Positions 18,905 through 60,185 of a stretch of 64,000 nucleotides of DNA are shown here, one piece after another. Below the pieces are notes generated by a model. The model did no database searches. It saw only the letters and a program-made list of their open reading frames with translations, and was not told the DNA's origin. Numbering within the stretch: position 1 is the first letter of the stretch; every line of letters starts with the position of its first letter. The DNA lies in assembly GCA_024681515.1 (NCBI GenBank), contig JAILAR010000004.1, forward strand, positions 1-64,000, in the 5' to 3' direction. The translations under genes were made by a program, and so were the position numbers. Source of the DNA: Eubacterium sp. GTDB lineage: Bacteria > Bacillota > Clostridia > Lachnospirales > Lachnospiraceae.

Positions 18905-19250
18905 CGAAAGAAAACGCCCCCACAGGTTTCCCTGTAGAGGCGTGTTATACGCTGTACCACTCTACTTTACTCTTCCCGGCACTGCCTACCGATAAATCAT
19001 ATCCGGCTGCCATACCATGAAAAGCCTTGTTGCAGATACGCACCGGAGCATGTGCCCGATCGGTGTTATATCCTCCCGATATCACGGTCGGGACCCGTCC
19101 TCAACTACTCAGATCTCCTGTCTTTTCGCCTCGGCTGCTCGAAGGTCAGTTCGCGAATCCATCTCCTGTCGTCTCACACCAACCGACGACTCTCTGTAAG
19201 GTTTCCGGAATCCTACTACTCCTTGTCAACGCTTTGTCATTATCAAGTTG
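18905..19250 (-). promoter_or_regulatory. Leucine T-box leader of leuA
   Basis: The minus-strand leader has the T-box layout. Stem I carries AGAGAGTC and a GAA-CTG-ACC-TTCGAG segment whose CTG (19147-19149) fits a leucine specifier codon. The conserved antiterminator bulge region AGAGTGGTACAGCG lies at 18950-18966. A terminator follows with arms ACGCCTCTACAGG / CCTGTGGGGGCGT (18914-18943) and TTTTCTTTC. Uncharged tRNA-Leu would favour the antiterminator and leuA transcription. Confidence 0.9.
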
Positions 19251-23945: not shown

Positions 23946-24062
23946 TCCGCTCCTTTTTATATTCGATACTTCGCACGCAAGCGTGCTCCGTATTTCATGC
24001 GCTTACATTGCCAGCCATACACCTTACACTTGGTTATCAGTTTCGCGCTTCTGTTCAAATGA
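23946..24062 (-). repeat. SD-bearing intergenic repeat, family 1 copy F (diverged)
   Basis: On the minus strand ACGGAGCACGC-TT-GCGTGCGAAGTAT then GAATA leads into the AAGGAG of the PurF paralogue. This is the same order as the other copies, but with a different hairpin sequence that still pairs (GCACGC/GCGTGC). The upstream half is poorly conserved. Confidence 0.5.
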
Positions 24063-31983: not shown

Positions 31984-32150
31984 TTATTCCATACTTCGCG
32001 CCTACGCCATAGTGACAGAATACCGTAATTCATCCGTTTCGGTCTATCGGAAAAACACGACATGAACTACCGACAATATTTGATGATACGGTCACATTGC
32101 ACACGAAGTTTGCGTGCTGCGTATCATCAACCGGAGGCCAAAGGTCGCAA
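31984..32150 (-). repeat. Composite repeat E (family 1 end plus family 2 body)
   Basis: On the minus strand the end reads GGCGCGAAGTATGGAATA followed by AGGAG, identical to family 1. The upstream part is a family 2 element with perfect TTGATGATACG / CGTATCATCAA arms enclosing GCACGCAAACTTCGTGTGC. It fills the gap between the DUF3737 gene and the glycosidase-like gene. Confidence 0.55.
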
Positions 32151-41900: not shown

Positions 41901-43081
41901 CCCTCTCCGATGCTTTCATCTTCCTGTTTCTCATCATTCCAGCGAGTGGTCTTCCAGATGCAGGGATATGTGACCTTCTGTCCCTTTTCATCATAGACCT
42001 CAAACTTGGACATGTCCTCATCTGCGATCGGGGTGATCTTCCCGTCCGCATCCTTCCAGCCGAAGGTAAAGGAATTATCCGCCTTGATCTCATAATCATA
42101 CAGAGATCCGGTCAGTCGGTCCGGATAAAATACCGGTCCATCATCTTCCCACGCAGTCCAGTCTACCAGCAAACCATACCGCTCCGGCGGATAACAGTCA
42201 AACCAGCGATCCTCACGGCGAGTACCGTTTTCTTCGTAGGTTTCCCCGTTATAATCATAGTCGACCATATCCATAACCGCCTGGAAATTGAAGGGATAAT
42301 CGATCTCTTTCGGAACGGTTATCTTATATACCGAACAGTTTTCAACATTCTCGACCTTCTCAACCTCAGCCGAATCCCTCACTCGTTCATCGAAGAAGTT
42401 GACCTCTGCGATCTCGATCTCCGTCTTGTAGTTCTCTCCGTACCGATTCTCGGCGATCAGATAAAATGTTCCGCTTGTTCCATAGGAAACCTGATTTCCG
42501 AGCAGATACTGCTCATCGGTGCTCGCACTTGAATAAACTGCCATGATCGGTTTTTCCACATGGATCGTTGCCTCTGTGAAAACGTCCTGATTCTGAGGAA
42601 ATTCTTCATTCTTCAGAGACCCGGAATACGTCATCTTCAGATCTCCGCTCTTCGGGAAGAGGGCCTGATAAAAGCCGTCCCCTACGCGTTCTTCGATCCA
42701 CTCATGCGTTTCTTCGTCATCATAGCCTTCCATGATCGGCTGGATGTTTGCATCCACTTCCTGATCATTCTCATCCGTGATGGTGATGTATGCAAGATCC
42801 TCATCCGTAAACGGTGTCACCGTACCGTCTGCATGCCGCCAGCCGATGGTGAACTCACCTCTGGATCTGGTCTCAAACCACATCTCATTTACCATTACGT
42901 CCGTGTTCATTTCTCTCTGACCGTCACCGTTCCATTCAGGCCATCCCAGAATAAGGCCTCCTGCTTTCGGCCCCTCATCTACCGGGAACTCCTCTGCCCG
43001 AACCGGGAAGCCCGACATCAGGCTGAAAAGCATCACAACGACTGTCAGAAGACTGATGTACCTGCGTCTTCGTTTACCCAT
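38945..43081 (-). CDS. Large secreted repeat protein with choline-binding-like C-terminal repeats
   Basis: A 1378-residue exported protein. A signal peptide (YISLLTVVVMLFSLMSGF, cleavage near Ala28) is followed by four diverged tandem units of about 230-260 residues. Each has a FGWxDADGxVTP-like block, a YSSxxxSxETLIG block and a YTxxxxEFYI block. Near residues 1080-1170 lies a Cna-B-like beta domain ending VTLKNIYK. The last 200 residues are aromatic Gly-Trp/Tyr repeats such as GWYAKN, IDGKWYYFKANGY and GYWYQLPDG, which bind cell-wall choline or polysaccharide. The protein should sit on the cell surface. The function of the four units is unknown. Its 5' leader contains repeat copy B. Confidence 0.82.
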   Translation of the reverse strand: MGKRRRRYISLLTVVVMLFSLMSGFPVRAEEFPVDEGPKAGGLILGWPEWNGDGQREMNTDVMVNEMWFETRSRGEFTIGWRHADGTVTPFTDEDLAYITITDENDQEVDANIQPIMEGYDDEETHEWIEERVGDGFYQALFPKSGDLKMTYSGSLKNEEFPQNQDVFTEATIHVEKPIMAVYSSASTDEQYLLGNQVSYGTSGTFYLIAENRYGENYKTEIEIAEVNFFDERVRDSAEVEKVENVENCSVYKITVPKEIDYPFNFQAVMDMVDYDYNGETYEENGTRREDRWFDCYPPERYGLLVDWTAWEDDGPVFYPDRLTGSLYDYEIKADNSFTFGWKDADGKITPIADEDMSKFEVYDEKGQKVTYPCIWKTTRWNDEKQEDESIGEGSFNLKFDTPGVYTVKFNSGEAFGNIPDDGYFSDSVKIYAVMPHVSLYSSEEISLETLIGPHAEYTAEQREFYINSQDNIDGNIKRQYTLDGFQLEGSSDVGDHVLVELLESGNYKITVDDGYTDHFNIRAYIKVEEYSLNESEWEKINEWEYDYWIDFDFWEPTPFGLGVAWPEPHEEDLPTFPEEVFHWLGIDAKNSLTMAFGWEDADGTVTPLALTDISKLHLYDPEGKEVKVDWIGLPTRWDEQSQEEIPLDIEGLFEVRFPGTGYYTITLDKDVSGIEVPDGMAVNTSVIFDVTYPTVGIYDSTTVSDESLIDRHSVQFTEDSEKEYYILVTDQIDSWNKMERSITSYDVELPYGFEDQEAEIVTITKVSDHVLKVVIADDCRVGFDVIVKTTVKNQHYNQQTQTWEYEDQVWNEDERMNFWYFEKERYGFTIGYPNPYTLMADEDMRDHLDGVFANSGISVIFAWRDSSGQLVQIIDPEEIEDLVITYEDGSEAPAVYMERQDNDGNIYDVWFDRPGLYTIKYTGAQAVDEKLEDRRFSDEVTVWVDFPFAAAYTSEDVSMETLIGQDVVYTPDAMEFYINGMAIADEGGSMTSTVSGVSVENVDEPDFVEFANTDSGVKVTITKEPDKEFDGVFTLLTDVTIKAIHLDEQGQKIGEDTLNTTVKIHFEPGEGFAKGSIKVSLLAEGATPKNVKIALANLDDESYYGLDGTVIDNEDKIWIAIKPGTPVVFENLPVGGYLVFEDEDSVAVSGYDLVEAKSILATDEVVVAEDEETEVTLKNIYKAKKVVYPYKNEWVKGVWYNKDGTQTYKYKGSWKSNSKGTWFADTSGWCAKNCWQRIDSKDYYFGKNGYMESECYRDGYYLTKTGAYDGKGKAKWKKDSKGYWYQLPDGTYLKKCWAMIDGKWYYFKANGYAAKNEWVKGYYWIGKDMVWSYKPKGSWHQDKNGWWFGDTSGWYAKNETLVIDGKSYKFNAKGYWK

Positions 43082-43091
43082 TAATAAAACC

Positions 43092-43199
43092 TCCTATTCC
43101 ATACTGCGCGCCTAAAGCGCTCCGTGGATTATCATTTCGCACGTATTTGCATATAATTTGCTTTACATTCCCTGTTCGAGTACGTGCTCCATGATAATC
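43092..43199 (-). repeat. SD-bearing intergenic repeat, family 1 copy B
   Basis: This lies inside the transcribed leader of the large surface protein. Outer arms GATTATCAT (43127-43135) / ATGATAATC (43191-43199) and inner arms GCACGTA (43139-43145) / TACGTGC (43181-43187) pair perfectly. Downstream on the minus strand come a GCGC hairpin, CAGTATGGAATA and the AGGAGG ribosome-binding site. Confidence 0.75.
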
Positions 43200-43241
43200 A
43201 GTCCATATACTCCCTTTCACGCAACTATCAAGATATTGTAA

Positions 43242-46079: not shown

Positions 46080-46440
46080 TCATCCCATCAGGGACAGCAG
46101 CGTTTCATAAAGCGCTTCCGGATGATCCGATACTCAACATAATCCAGATTATCCTCATTGTGAAGGATCTGTGTCTGGATCGATTCCGAGATCGCCTGAT
46201 AATCTTCCGGATGCAGCATCCCCCGAAACGTAAAACCGGTCAGTGCCTTAAAATCTTCCAGATCATCACATCCGAAAATGTCAAACACCGCATGGTTCGC
46301 ATAGATCAGTTCCTCCGGTGCTTCCGCCTTATAAATGAAGAACCCGCCGGGCATATGCCTGCCGAGTTCCTCCACTACCGGCATCGTCTGTTCATTTAAT
46401 GATGCTGGGGTCAAAAGGTATTTTGCCCCCAGCTGATGAT
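46080..46440 (-). pseudogene. PAS-domain remnant of a sensor protein
   Basis: About 95 codons encode a PAS-like domain (GGFFIYKAEAPEELIYANHA, FTFRGMLHPEDYQ). The frame then breaks after EYRIIRK. One frame over, EALYETLLSLMG and a TGA at 46080-46082 look like the tail of a receiver domain, so most of a hybrid sensor kinase seems deleted. Upstream, the reading frame runs into a repeat element (46400-46520) with no credible start. It follows an HPt gene in the same direction. Confidence 0.6.
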
Positions 46441-46520
46441 TCGCAGCACGCACACTACGTGTGCAATGTGCTGCTAAAACACTCACGGAAAAAACAGCAC
46501 TCCGTGCCGACGCGCCATCA
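46400..46520 (+). repeat. Intergenic repeat, family 2 copy, inverted
   Basis: Contains GGGGTCAAAA / TTTTGCCCC arms and GATGATTCGCAGCACGC followed by CACTACGTGTGCAATGTG. This matches, apart from single changes, the minus-strand copy near 32.1 kb (ATGATACGCAGCACGCA, then TTCGTGTGCAATGTG). It has replaced the 5' end of the PAS remnant and abuts the HPt stop. Confidence 0.6.
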
Positions 46521-48904: not shown

Positions 48905-50131
48905 TTAGTACAGCGTCCCGTCATAGTACTGCAGCAGCAGATCCGTCACACGGCCGTAGCTGGCGATCCCGTCCTCGATCCCGTAATAATGCATATATCC
49001 ATTTGTAAAATCGTCATGGATCTTCCCCATGGTATCCGTATTGAAGATGGAGTTTTCTTCCACTTCCTCCCAGGCTTCTTTCGTCAGAAAAATGTCATCC
49101 GTTTTCACGTGCTCCGAAAAAGAAGGCTGTGCCTTATAGCGCTCCGGATCCGCCACCTTCATGTTGTCATAATATGCATTCTGAACGTAATTCAGAACCC
49201 CGAGGTAACCGGAGTAAACCACATAGGGATCCTCCGAACGAAGGCAGGCACGAAACGCCAGATAGTTGGCCTCATCCTCCTGCATGTACCCTTTCAGGTG
49301 CGCGTATTCATGACAGAAGACAAAGGCATGATTTGTGATATACATCTTTGTGTTGTAATTTGCTTCCATGGAAAACGGAAAGAAGATCCCCATGAGCCGG
49401 CTCTGGGACATGACGGAGGAAAAAAAGACCGGTTTCATGTCCGGATAATATCCCGCCAGCCGCGGATACTCGTCTTCCATGGACTGCATGAGACGTCGGC
49501 ACTCCCCGTTAAGGTCCGAAAGATCCGGATCGTAGATCAGCCTGCCCTTGTCATCCCGGGGAAACTCCGCTGCCATGGCATTGCATTTCTCCACCAGGTA
49601 ATTTCGAAGGATCTCCAGCTCCCCCACAGTGTATGCCCGTGCCTGTCCTTTGACCTCCATATCCGAGCAGCCATAAGGGATGGAACAGTTAAGTGTCATG
49701 ATCAGGGCCACAGACAGCAGGATCATAAGAAAGGTCTTATAAAACACCCGGCAGAATCTCCGGAATCCTGCTTTTTTTCGAAGAAAGATCAAAAGTATAC
49801 CGAGGATCAGAACCGCAGCGATGAGCAACAAACCGAGAACGATCAGAATCTCTCCGACAGAGAACGGAAACAGTCCGGTAAGCCTTCCATAGGTGTTCAG
49901 AATGACCGGTGTAATATGTGAGGTATAGAAATCACAGAACCCTTTCCACATGGCCAGCAGATTAAAAACAAGTATCAAAAGCAAAAGGGCCCCGGCCGAA
50001 ATCCAATACGGACTCCGGAGGATCCTTCCACCGATTCTCTTCAGTTTTTTATTCAAGTCTTTATTCACGTTTTTATCATATTCTTTCCCTGGACACCGAT
50101 CAGTTCTGTCCATAATATGCATTTGCCCCAT
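48905..50131 (-). CDS. DUF3810-type membrane metallopeptidase-like protein
   Basis: A 408-residue protein with three N-terminal helices (residues about 45-150, including [19 protein letters not shown] and [20 protein letters not shown]). A soluble part with the zinc-protease motif HEYAH follows, inside [25 protein letters not shown], the DUF3810 hallmark. Family members are membrane-bound putative zincins of unknown substrate. The frame opens at 50131, overlapping the araD end by 32 bases. A GTG at about 50068 is another possible start, as no strong site marks either. It is not obviously related to arabinose use. Confidence 0.75.
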
Positions 50132-50795
50132 GTTTCCGGAAGAAATGCTTGTCTCGGATGCAGTCCGGTGCCGGACGAACCTCCGGATTGATGAGCTCCG
50201 TCTTCAGGGCCATCTTCGCAACTTCCTCCAGCACAACCGCGTTATGTACGGCTTCCGCCGCATCCTTGCCCCAGGTGAATGGGCCGTGATTGGTGCAGAG
50301 CACGCCGGGGGTATACATGGGATTGATGCCCCGCTTCTCAAAAGTCTCGATGATCACAAGACCCGTATTCTTTTCGTATGCCTCATCGATCTCCTCCGGC
50401 GTCAGGTTCCGAGCGCAGGGAATCTCCCCAAAGAAATAATCCGCATGGGTGGTTCCGTACAGCGGAATACTTCGTCCCGCCTGAGCCCAGGAAGTCGCCT
50501 CCGGACTGTGAGTATGTACGATACCGCCGATCTCCTTGTAATACTTGTACAGTTCCAGATGGGTCGGGGTATCCGACGAAGGTCTCATGTCTCCCTCCAC
50601 CTTCCGGCCGTCCAGATCCATCACCACCATATCTTCCCAGCGCATGGTCTCATAATCCACCCCACTGGGTTTGATCACGAAAAGCCCTGACTCACGGTCG
50701 ATACTGCTGACATTTCCCCAGGTGTAGGTCACAAGCCCCCGACGGGGAAGCTCCATATTCGCCTCGTATACCTTCTTCTTCAGTTCCTCAAGCAT
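50100..50795 (-). CDS. araD: L-ribulose-5-phosphate 4-epimerase
   Basis: A 231-residue class-II aldolase-like epimerase that makes D-xylulose-5-phosphate from L-ribulose-5-phosphate. Motifs include [32 protein letters not shown], and the zinc site [14 protein letters not shown] with YGTTHADYF. Start ATG at 50793-50795 uses AGGAG that is the terminal part of repeat copy C. It follows araB in the arabinose operon. Confidence 0.95.
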
Positions 50796-50805
50796 TGTTT
50801 TGTCT

Positions 50806-50917
50806 CCTATTCCATACTTCGCGCCTTCCGGCGCTCCGTTACGAATCATTTCGCGCGTATATTCCGATCACTCACTTTATCCTTCGTTCTTTAGTCCGCG
50901 CTCCATGATTCGTCATA
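50806..50917 (-). repeat. SD-bearing intergenic repeat, family 1 copy C
   Basis: Between araB and araD. Perfect outer arms ACGAATCAT (50841-50849) / ATGATTCGT (50905-50913), inner CGCGCG/CGCG pairing, then a GCGCC-TTCC-GGCGC hairpin (50821-50834) and, on the minus strand, GGCGCGAAGTATGGAATAGG leading into the araD start. The last block is nearly identical to copy D. Confidence 0.75.
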
Positions 50918-59395: not shown

Positions 59396-60058
59396 TCATG
59401 ACACTTTGCTCACCATTCCGTCCCACATTTCCACCGTCAGGTCCACATCCGAAAGAATGGAACGGTCATGGGTTACCACCAGCACCAGCCGGTCCTTCGA
59501 ATAATCCTTTAAGATCTTCATCACATTAAATGCATTCTCATGATCCAGGGAAGCCGTGGGTTCGTCCGCAAAGATCACCTTCGGATCGTTGACCATGGCT
59601 CTGGCGATGGCAACTCTCTGGCACTGCCCGCCGGAAAGCTTAGCCGGCCGTTTGCCGAACTCCCGCTCGGAAAGGCCGAGTTTTCTCAGGAAGTCTTTTG
59701 CCCGATTTACGGAATCTCTGCCGCGGTCAGTAGCCGCAACCAGCACATTATCCAGCGCGCTCATGTAGGGCACCAGGTAATGCTTCTGGAAGACAAATCC
59801 GAATTCCTTCCGACGCAGCTGCTCGCGTTCGTCATCCCTGCACTCCGTCACCTCACGGCCGTTGTAGCTGACGCTGCCTTCCGTAGGTTTCTTCAGCGTG
59901 GACATGCAGTACATCAATGTACTCTTGCCGCTGCCGGAAGGACCGATGATCCCCACCAGACCGGTGTCCGGAAGATCCAGGTCAAAACCACCGAGCGCGT
60001 ACATTTTCTCATCTGTATCCGAATCATAGATCATACTGATATTTTTAATCTCAAACAT
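59396..60058 (-). CDS. MacB/LolD-type ABC transporter ATPase
   Basis: A 220-residue ABC ATPase. Walker A is GPSGSGKST, the signature is LSGGQCQRVAIARA, Walker B is VIFADEPTASLD and the H-loop is VVTHDRSIL. The ATG at 60056-60058 is used because repeat copy D ends in AGGAGG just upstream. A longer reading goes into the repeat. It lies between the two FtsX-type permeases and would drive both. Confidence 0.93.
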   Translation of the reverse strand: MFEIKNISMIYDSDTDEKMYALGGFDLDLPDTGLVGIIGPSGSGKSTLMYCMSTLKKPTEGSVSYNGREVTECRDDEREQLRRKEFGFVFQKHYLVPYMSALDNVLVAATDRGRDSVNRAKDFLRKLGLSEREFGKRPAKLSGGQCQRVAIARAMVNDPKVIFADEPTASLDHENAFNVMKILKDYSKDRLVLVVTHDRSILSDVDLTVEMWDGMVSKVS

Positions 60059-60063
60059 GGGAT

Positions 60064-60185
60064 TCCTCCTATTCCACACTTCGCGCCTTCCGGCGCTCCG
60101 TGATTCATCATGTCGCACATATTAATCGTTTATCCGCTTTACGTTTTTGTTCGAGTCCGTGCTCCATGATTCTTGTTCAACACTT
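60064..60185 (-). repeat. SD-bearing intergenic repeat, family 1 copy D
   Basis: Between the first permease and the ATPase. GCGCC-TTCC-GGCGC hairpin (60083-60096), inner arms GCAC/GTGC (60115-60118, 60159-60162), an imperfect outer arm, and on the minus strand GAAGTGTGGAATAGGAGG as the ATPase ribosome-binding site. The 5' end carries CGAAGTGTTGAA as in copy A. Confidence 0.75.

Follow-up and report, generated by a model that had tools for sequence, protein, structure and literature searches.

A structured intergenic repeat lying directly upstream of Shine-Dalgarno sequences in a Eubacterium genome

Described small repeats and the present element

REP sequences are imperfect palindromes preceded by a conserved tetranucleotide, GTAG or GGAG, and are found mostly after genes, not before Shine-Dalgarno (SD) sequences. 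The repeat described here was found in a window of 64,000 nucleotides (the whole stretch of DNA covered by the first-pass annotation) from a Eubacterium sp. genome, and full copies consist of a longer hairpin 1 and a smaller hairpin 2. It resembles the REP/BIME repeats with their RAYT transposases in having hairpins in single and multiple units that are dispersed between genes, and differs from them in that no intact RAYT was found in the present genome. With respect to the REP tetranucleotide, hairpin 2 starts with ACGGAG, but the last G is paired, and hairpin 1 has GGA in only 8 of 19 alignment rows.

The BOX, RUP and SPRITE families of Streptococcus pneumoniae are short, structured intergenic repeats with many copies, thought to be parasitic and moved in trans; RUP is about 107 bp long, while BOX is modular and forms arrays (PMC3049150). 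Compared by description alone, the present element is likewise short, intergenic, structured and abundant, and it differs in its placement, as the passages of that paper describing the three families give them no fixed position beside the SD. MITEs, as portrayed in the relevant part of another source, are also small non-coding repeats thought to be moved in trans (PMC10969869). Our element, also small and non-coding, differs from them in having no terminal inverted repeats: its 5' arm pairs inside hairpin 1, and its 3' tail is unpaired in the supported structure. MRSC-65-2 and similar candidates are covarying structured repeats with dozens of copies per genome, built as a single long stem, and the corresponding section of that paper takes inconsistent orientation relative to genes as a sign of mobility (PMC11109978). 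The present element shares the covarying structure and the many copies; it differs in that at least 114 of 146 3' cores lie in sense.

In position, the nearest relatives in the portions of the literature available are the TAACTGA heptamer repeats of Beggiatoaceae, which occur mostly in sense directly before start codons (169 sets in one genome), precede genes without a functional pattern, and have been proposed to play a translational role (PMC4679880). According to the pertinent sections of that report, they overlap the expected ribosome-binding site, and an SD is present in only about 10% of the regions that bear them. The likeness lies in the sense orientation before the starts of functionally mixed genes; the difference is that those repeats are short direct heptamers, whereas the copies of our element mostly adjoin an intact SD. 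As far as these sources extend, the nearest kinds of element are thus BOX-type repeats, REP/BIME and MITEs, and the TAACTGA repeats are the only family with a fixed place next to the SD that the retrieved parts of open-licence PMC papers yielded. The first-pass annotation of this DNA knew of no described family with such an arrangement, and Rfam 15 agrees: there was no gathering-score match on the element in the window or at six further loci, and lax filters gave only two matches, with E values of 2.6 and 3.9. What sets this small structured and probably mobile repeat apart is its unusual SD-adjacent placement.

Copies, structure and distribution of the family

Three covariance models were used: R1 describes the full element (107 positions, 21 pairs), R2 hairpin 2 alone and R3 hairpin 1 alone. 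The focal full-length element (50808–50914, minus strand; R1, 112.6 bits) comprises two hairpins and a tail and lies directly 5' of an araD-like class II aldolase gene (50100–50795, minus strand; PF00596, 1.8e-53). Its hairpin 1 (50840–50914, minus strand; R3, 76.1 bits) has a long covarying stem, a 3x3 internal loop, which is GGA/GAA in this copy, and a terminal loop of about 38 nt, with covariation in helices 1 and 2. Hairpin 2 and the tail (50808–50839, minus strand; R2, 52.8 bits) read AC-GGA-GCGCC-GGAA-GGCGC-GAA-GT followed by ATGGAATA, an exact match to the hairpin pattern. The GGAG at 50804–50807 (minus strand), the SD of the araD-like gene, is judged to be native and to lie outside the repeat; an SD-like motif stands at the same place in 11 of 11 element-free congener sequences.

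The other copies of the window are also on the minus strand. One (2781–2885; R1, 85.5 bits) precedes a neuB-like gene that starts at 2766 (PF03102), another (43095–43200; R1, 106.9 bits) a large gene with weak choline-binding-repeat similarity that starts at 43081, and a third (60070–60175; R1, 102 bits) an ABC-transporter ATPase gene that starts at 60058 (PF00005); the latter gap is without a match in the five congeners examined (5/5). A diverged copy, which we call type II (23960–24060; R1, 43.3 bits; hairpin 2 pattern with one mismatch), lies before a gene with a glutamine amidotransferase domain. A coding reading of the type II copies, for which L018 offers a short frame, was rejected, the hairpin loop lengths differing out of frame between copies when compared by eye. 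All five dispersed copies that the first-pass annotation had listed were thus confirmed, and the family turned out to be larger than it had claimed. Of the sixth copy, whose end had been placed near 31984, the 3' core GCGAAGTATGGAATA is present and exact at 31985–31999 (minus strand), followed by AGGAG and ATG; the stretch 5' of it shows no typical fold and folds no better than shuffled sequences (z −0.39), and the core may be read as a degenerate or shortened copy. Four of the five window copies are more stable than their shuffles (z −2.49 to −4.20), the type II copy at 23960 being the one that is not (z +0.58). Allowing up to three mismatches, we counted 9 occurrences of the core in the window where 1.3 were expected, and no shuffle out of 100 gave as many as 9.

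Two further features of the window are recorded. A T-box leader (Rfam RF00230) occupies 18933–19238 on the minus strand, and a second dispersed repeat of about 95 nt is found at 46391–46489 and, inverted, at 32093–32142. The latter has many copies, with 81–98% identity, in congeners such as G021, G060 and G024, and a stretch similar to it seemingly lies in the panC-panD gap of G060 (L357).

In the whole source genome (3.13 Mb, 197 contigs), R1 found at least 149 matches at E ≤ 1, at least 136 of them at E < 0.001, while R2 matched at least 116 places and R3 at least 104 places at E ≤ 0.001. The candidates scored numbered 150 for R1, 115 for R2 and 150 for R3. The 32-nt pattern of the 3' hairpin, with up to three mismatches, has 86 matches in the genome, and the reversed control pattern has none. 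The full element is about 105 nt long, with two hairpins followed by the constant 3' end GYGCGAAGTRTGGAAT. In hairpin 1, nine pairs form the outer stem, which a 3x3 internal loop separates from the inner stem GCRCG/CGYGC, and the terminal loop, about 40 nt long, contains a conserved TAAAGC. The internal loop varies between copies: its 5' half is GGA in 8 of 19 rows, its 3' half GAA in 7 of 19. Hairpin 2, which can also stand alone without hairpin 1, has the form AC-GGA-GCRC...GYGC-GAA-GT, followed by ATGGAAT, and its internal loop shows GGA in all 19 rows and GAA in 17 of them, the rows having been chosen by a pattern that contains both.

The pairing is supported by compensatory change. On 19 rows, 92.4% of the cells are paired, and 44 cells have changed on both sides, compared with 14.2 in shuffles; on 101 rows (95 copies of the source genome and 6 from congeners), 89.9% are paired and 230 two-sided changes stand against 64 in shuffles, in an alignment that was fitted to the model and leans towards it. 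Two-sided change is seen in 18 of the 21 pairs. Upstream of 164 cores found with the approximate pattern, a type I hairpin 1 was recognised in 78, the diverged type II in 13 and neither in 73; these cores include 18 with four mismatches, some spurious-looking by eye, which were dropped to leave 146 cores for the category counts. Near-identical copies occur at unrelated genes, as for the window copy at 50808 and G000:C44:2118-2224 (0.99 identity), and an identical head-to-tail pair lies at C5:52604/52709.

The repeat is lineage-specific and expanded in this species. The first-pass annotation had proposed a covariance-model search of the genome and its relatives, and beside the large family here this search found the repeat in 5 of 61 genomes of the genus, the source genome included, with at least 64, 11, 5, 2 and 2 matches to R1 and at least 116, 15, 7, 3 and 2 to R2; the 56 other genomes gave no R2 match. 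Among 200 genomes sampled across the Lachnospiraceae, under stricter filters and with 19 candidates considered in each, the source genome alone matched. The exact 3'-hairpin pattern gave no match in genome-contig and viral-contig collections (from which the source genome or near records may be omitted), and the focal copy had no match in phage or plasmid collections.

Nineteen copies in congeners were inspected, and an automatic rule found 12 of them to precede an SD with a start codon. The element is present both here and in a congener at three loci (L406/C2:21216, L398/C182:25389 and L400/C26:32297, the last with differing 5' parts), and one copy is common to G034 and G016, without a difference in the stretch compared; because of this sharing, some copies must be regarded as old or exchanged, and not all as recent. 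In three loci of G060 (L401, L402 and L405), hairpin 2 alone forms head-to-tail arrays with a period of about 30–37 nt, close to contig ends. Where L070 is compared with G060:C74 (L400), the genes are 94–96% identical, and about 3 kb lies between two copies here while G060 has a single copy, as if the elements were recombination points or the segment had been exchanged.

Position relative to genes and the probable mode of spread

Of the 146 good 3' cores, 114 have an SD and a start codon in sense within 45 nt, mostly at 9–18 nt, 9 precede another copy, and 23 have neither according to the automatic rule. On inspection by eye, several of these 23 prove to lie before a start codon, such as that of a short L36-like ORF on C83, and others are followed by terminator-like or promoter-like sequence or by another repeat; about 12 face no gene start by eye, and four of these adjoin GGA. 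The bias to start codons, which the first-pass annotation had singled out as the check on its proposal, is marked: a strong SD followed by ATG within 40 nt was found for 82 of 167 rows (166 distinct places), compared with 3.6% of 3000 random positions. This count leaves out the place on C195, and the places added by the R2 search stand outside the start, offset and category counts.

The annotation also held that each repeat ends with the AGGAG used by the gene. An AGGAG does follow, but the constant part stops at GGAAT(A), and the AGGAG lies beyond it at a variable distance. In the 110 best cores, the first GGAG comes 0 nt after GGAAT in 14, 1 nt in 32, 2–10 nt in 23 and 15–19 nt in 5, and 36 have no GGAG within 25 nt. 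The base after GGAAT is A in 80 of the 110 and the next is G in 73, so that, with these bases continuing past GGAAT and 36 cores lacking a nearby GGAG, the end of the element is not sharply defined.

Genes behind the repeat look functionally unrelated, as had been stated. Pfam bears this out for six window genes, and elsewhere metK, folB, panD, recG, leuC, deoB and an L36-like gene were named by eye from their N-termini. As to the individual names given before, the araD-like gene and the ABC ATPase are supported by Pfam, the “PurF paralogue” behind the copy at 23960 has a glutamine-amidotransferase domain, and the “glycosidase” after the core at 31985 matches no Pfam family and is unconfirmed.

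These observations are best explained, with a probability that we put at about 0.6, by a mobile repeat, neither autonomous nor coding, whose 3' end is constant and whose copies insert, or persist, in sense immediately before (A)GGAG. Copies would be made by an enzyme supplied in trans that keeps the fixed 3' end, and what is copied would be a small hairpin with a GGA/GAA internal loop, closed by the constant end, to which full copies add the longer upstream hairpin. Integration would be sense-oriented and would adjoin the 5' side of a purine-rich (A)GGAG, a motif that between genes mostly represents the SD of the gene that follows; in dense operons the insertion would fall in the few nucleotides between the upstream stop codon and the SD. 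It would be tolerated even inside operons because the preceding gene keeps its stop codon and the following one its SD and start codon, and the resulting RNA would carry one or two hairpins a few nucleotides before the SD. Under this explanation, the repeat would have spread by transposition, and its present position would reflect both target choice and selection against other sites. The 46 of 110 best cores with GGAG 0–1 nt after GGAAT argue for it.

The manner of copying may have left a trace in the lengths of the copies. In an anchored extension of the 146 cores (up to three mismatches), 86 reach at least 55 nt upstream, a few of them low-scoring, and 60 stop earlier, 42 of these within 20 nt of the core. 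Conversely, the 3' core is retained within 50 nt by 84 of 104 hairpin-1 matches (37 of 2000 random windows have it), and of the 20 without it, nine have a decayed hairpin 2 by eye and about ten have lost the 3' part. Loss is therefore commoner on the 5' than on the 3' side. That copies are often shortened at the 5' end while the 3' end stays constant is slight evidence for copying that begins at the 3' end of the RNA, as in reverse transcription. If synthesis stopped in the stem of hairpin 1, shortening would be commoner at the 5' end, but a 5' half under weaker constraint would decay to a similar picture. We consider it possible, although rather doubtful, that the whole of a more specific proposal holds, namely, that the element targets the Shine-Dalgarno sequence, being copied from its 3' end and integrated sense-wise immediately 5' of (A)GGAG, and so sets hairpins at the translation start of more than 100 unrelated genes, core-metabolism genes included, in one species. 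Small repeats scattered through a genome are common; if this proposal is true, however, a mobile element exploits the single short motif that signals a safe gap between the genes of a dense operon, and more than 100 genes with the repeat a few nucleotides before a native SD constitute a natural replicated experiment on translation initiation regions. Because congeners offer both occupied and unoccupied sites, what the repeat does to translation, to the stability of mRNA and to the coupling of genes in operons could be tested directly.

Rates of change were estimated from 15 mutual nearest pairs of sister copies, so the numbers are small. In hairpin 2, changes per site amount to 0.062 in the helices, 0.038 in the GGA/GAA loop and 0.146 in the terminal loop; in hairpin 1, to 0.043 in the inner stem, 0.151 in the outer stem, 0.174 in the terminal loop and 0.256 in the internal loop, which is the fastest class; and in the tail, to 0.075. 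Hairpin 2, its GGA/GAA loop and the tail thus change 2–5 times more slowly than loop 1. Among 34 pairs changed between sisters, 7 changed on both sides and 10 on one side while still pairing, and 17 are unpaired in one sister. On these small numbers, the 3' part of the element is constrained and the 5' part hardly so, which agrees with a role of the 3' part for the host, or with a requirement of active copies for it.

The slow change of hairpin 2, its loop and the tail could mean function at host loci, and it speaks against a purely mobile repeat. A regulatory 5' leader would account for it: a factor acting in trans, such as a CsrA-like protein that binds GGA or another RNA-binding protein, would recognise hairpin 2 or both hairpins beside the SD and control a large regulon, the leader having spread and then been kept by selection. 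The strong covariation, with 18 of 21 pairs changed on both sides, the near-constant GGA/GAA loop of hairpin 2, the sense orientation and the place before the SD all speak for such a leader. Against it, the genes downstream look unrelated in function, 56 of 61 genomes of the genus have no match, copies exist that stand in tandem or ahead of no gene start, hairpin 1 has an internal loop that is neither conserved nor slow to change, and 17 of the 34 changed pairs have lost their pairing in one sister. CsrA-regulated leaders carry ANGGA in hairpin loops and at the SD, where CsrA binds; ACGGA does occur in hairpin 2, but in an internal loop. We regard a regulatory leader as rather unlikely.

It is more improbable still that a mobile repeat without any target preference inserted anywhere and that mainly the copies in tight intercistronic gaps just 5' of the SD survived. 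Coding insertions would indeed be lost, and in 36 of 95 co-directional cases the copy starts no more than 15 nt after the stop codon of the preceding gene. This measure is crude, and the tally of neighbouring strands from which it comes (95 co-directional, 50 opposite, 1 short) is unreliable, as long antisense ORFs are common, and only the co-directional distances were used. Such a history, however, predicts many copies in both orientations in long intergenic regions and at 3' ends, yet 114 of the 146 cores face an SD and a start codon in sense and 9 precede a further copy; moreover, the distance to the first GGAG peaks at 0–1 nt.

Equally improbable in our estimation is a REP/BIME-type repeat moved by a RAYT or another Y1 (HUH) transposase with the target CTCC on the bottom strand. 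Imperfect hairpins in single and paired forms, with a short motif on one side, would suit that kind of element. Against it, the only trace of a Y1 transposase in this genome is a fragmentary match to 33 of 121 model positions, located where contig C191 ends (in an assembly of 197 contigs, where absence is no proof), and none was found in three of the four other carriers (G060, G016 and G034), the fourth, G006, having 11 matches, while 34 of the 56 non-carriers have at least one.

Other repeat-like sequences were met beside some copies. In G000 at C12:46593, C62:7958 and C32:17812, elements without a gene start are followed immediately by a palindromic repeat starting with AGGATTCGATTCTCC or AGGAATCGATTCTCC, with an AGGA motif at the junction. 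At G000 C100:6637, C63:74555 and C186:4435, and at L410 in G016, repeat-like sequence around GCGACATCGACGG and GGCATGGC adjoins decayed elements or is fused to them.

Orthologous sites without the element

Orthologous starts without the element were compared at 8 loci, picked for conserved genes and not at random, with 51 congener stretches in all: 11 for the araD-like gene, 8 for panD, 6 for folB, 5 for fabG, 7 for recG, 3 for aspartokinase, 6 for deoB and 5 for the ABC gene. The locus names other than araD and ABC were read by eye, and two araD sequences (L185 and L187) in which one flank aligned were left out. With all three models (R1, R2 and R3), the 51 stretches give no match, even when the threshold is relaxed to E ≤ 5. 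A 4-nt piece of the SD is found 4–20 nt 5' of the orthologous start in 47 of the 51, and GGAG or GAGG in 37. The araD start reads GGAGAAGAAAAC-ATG in G024 and GGAGACAAAACA-ATG in the source genome, and the panD start AAAGGAGAACGAT-ATG in G050 and AAGGAGAAACGAT-ATG in the source genome. In some cases, the sequence that separates the SD from the start codon is recognisably alike, as for araD in G024, panD in G050 and aspartokinase in G016 and G034. The intergenic DNA of the congeners is too diverged for base-exact empty sites, and junctions or target duplications are unreadable in it.

The first-pass annotation had proposed that the last bases of the repeat are the functional SD, delivered to each gene, that the repeat would thereby retune or insulate translation, and that orthologous loci with and without the element be compared. 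This comparison goes against delivery. An SD-like motif is already present at 47 of 51 element-free starts, and the variable distance from GGAAT to GGAG is unlike that of a carried motif; for these two reasons, we take the SD to be native, and judge from the aligned starts that the repeat does not, as a rule, deliver a ribosome-binding site and probably adjoins a native SD on its 5' side. The terminal A of the repeat may extend a GGAG to AGGAG. SDs of the AGGAG class follow the element in 39 of 59 genes, compared with 90 of 345 controls (90 of 230 when controls in which no SD was found are excluded), an excess that may be partly due to this last A. That the repeat carries its own SD and gives it to the gene is therefore very improbable, even with the terminal A and with GGAG 1 nt after GGAAT in 32 and 0 nt after it in 14 of the 110 best cores, given the motifs at element-free starts, the variable distance and the 36 cores with no GGAG within 25 nt.

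The aspartokinase leader of G016 and G034 (L382 and L383; CACCCGG..GG..TGCGTGGATAAGGAGG) is loosely like hairpin 2 with its tail and matches no model; the likeness could be chance or could hint at the origin of the repeat. In several congeners (G034, G038, G016 and G060), a different repeat, of the GTCATCCTGAGCGAAGCGAAGGATCC type, lies in the same gaps before the SD (L174, L176, L373, L381 and L382), and these gaps therefore seem to collect repeats.
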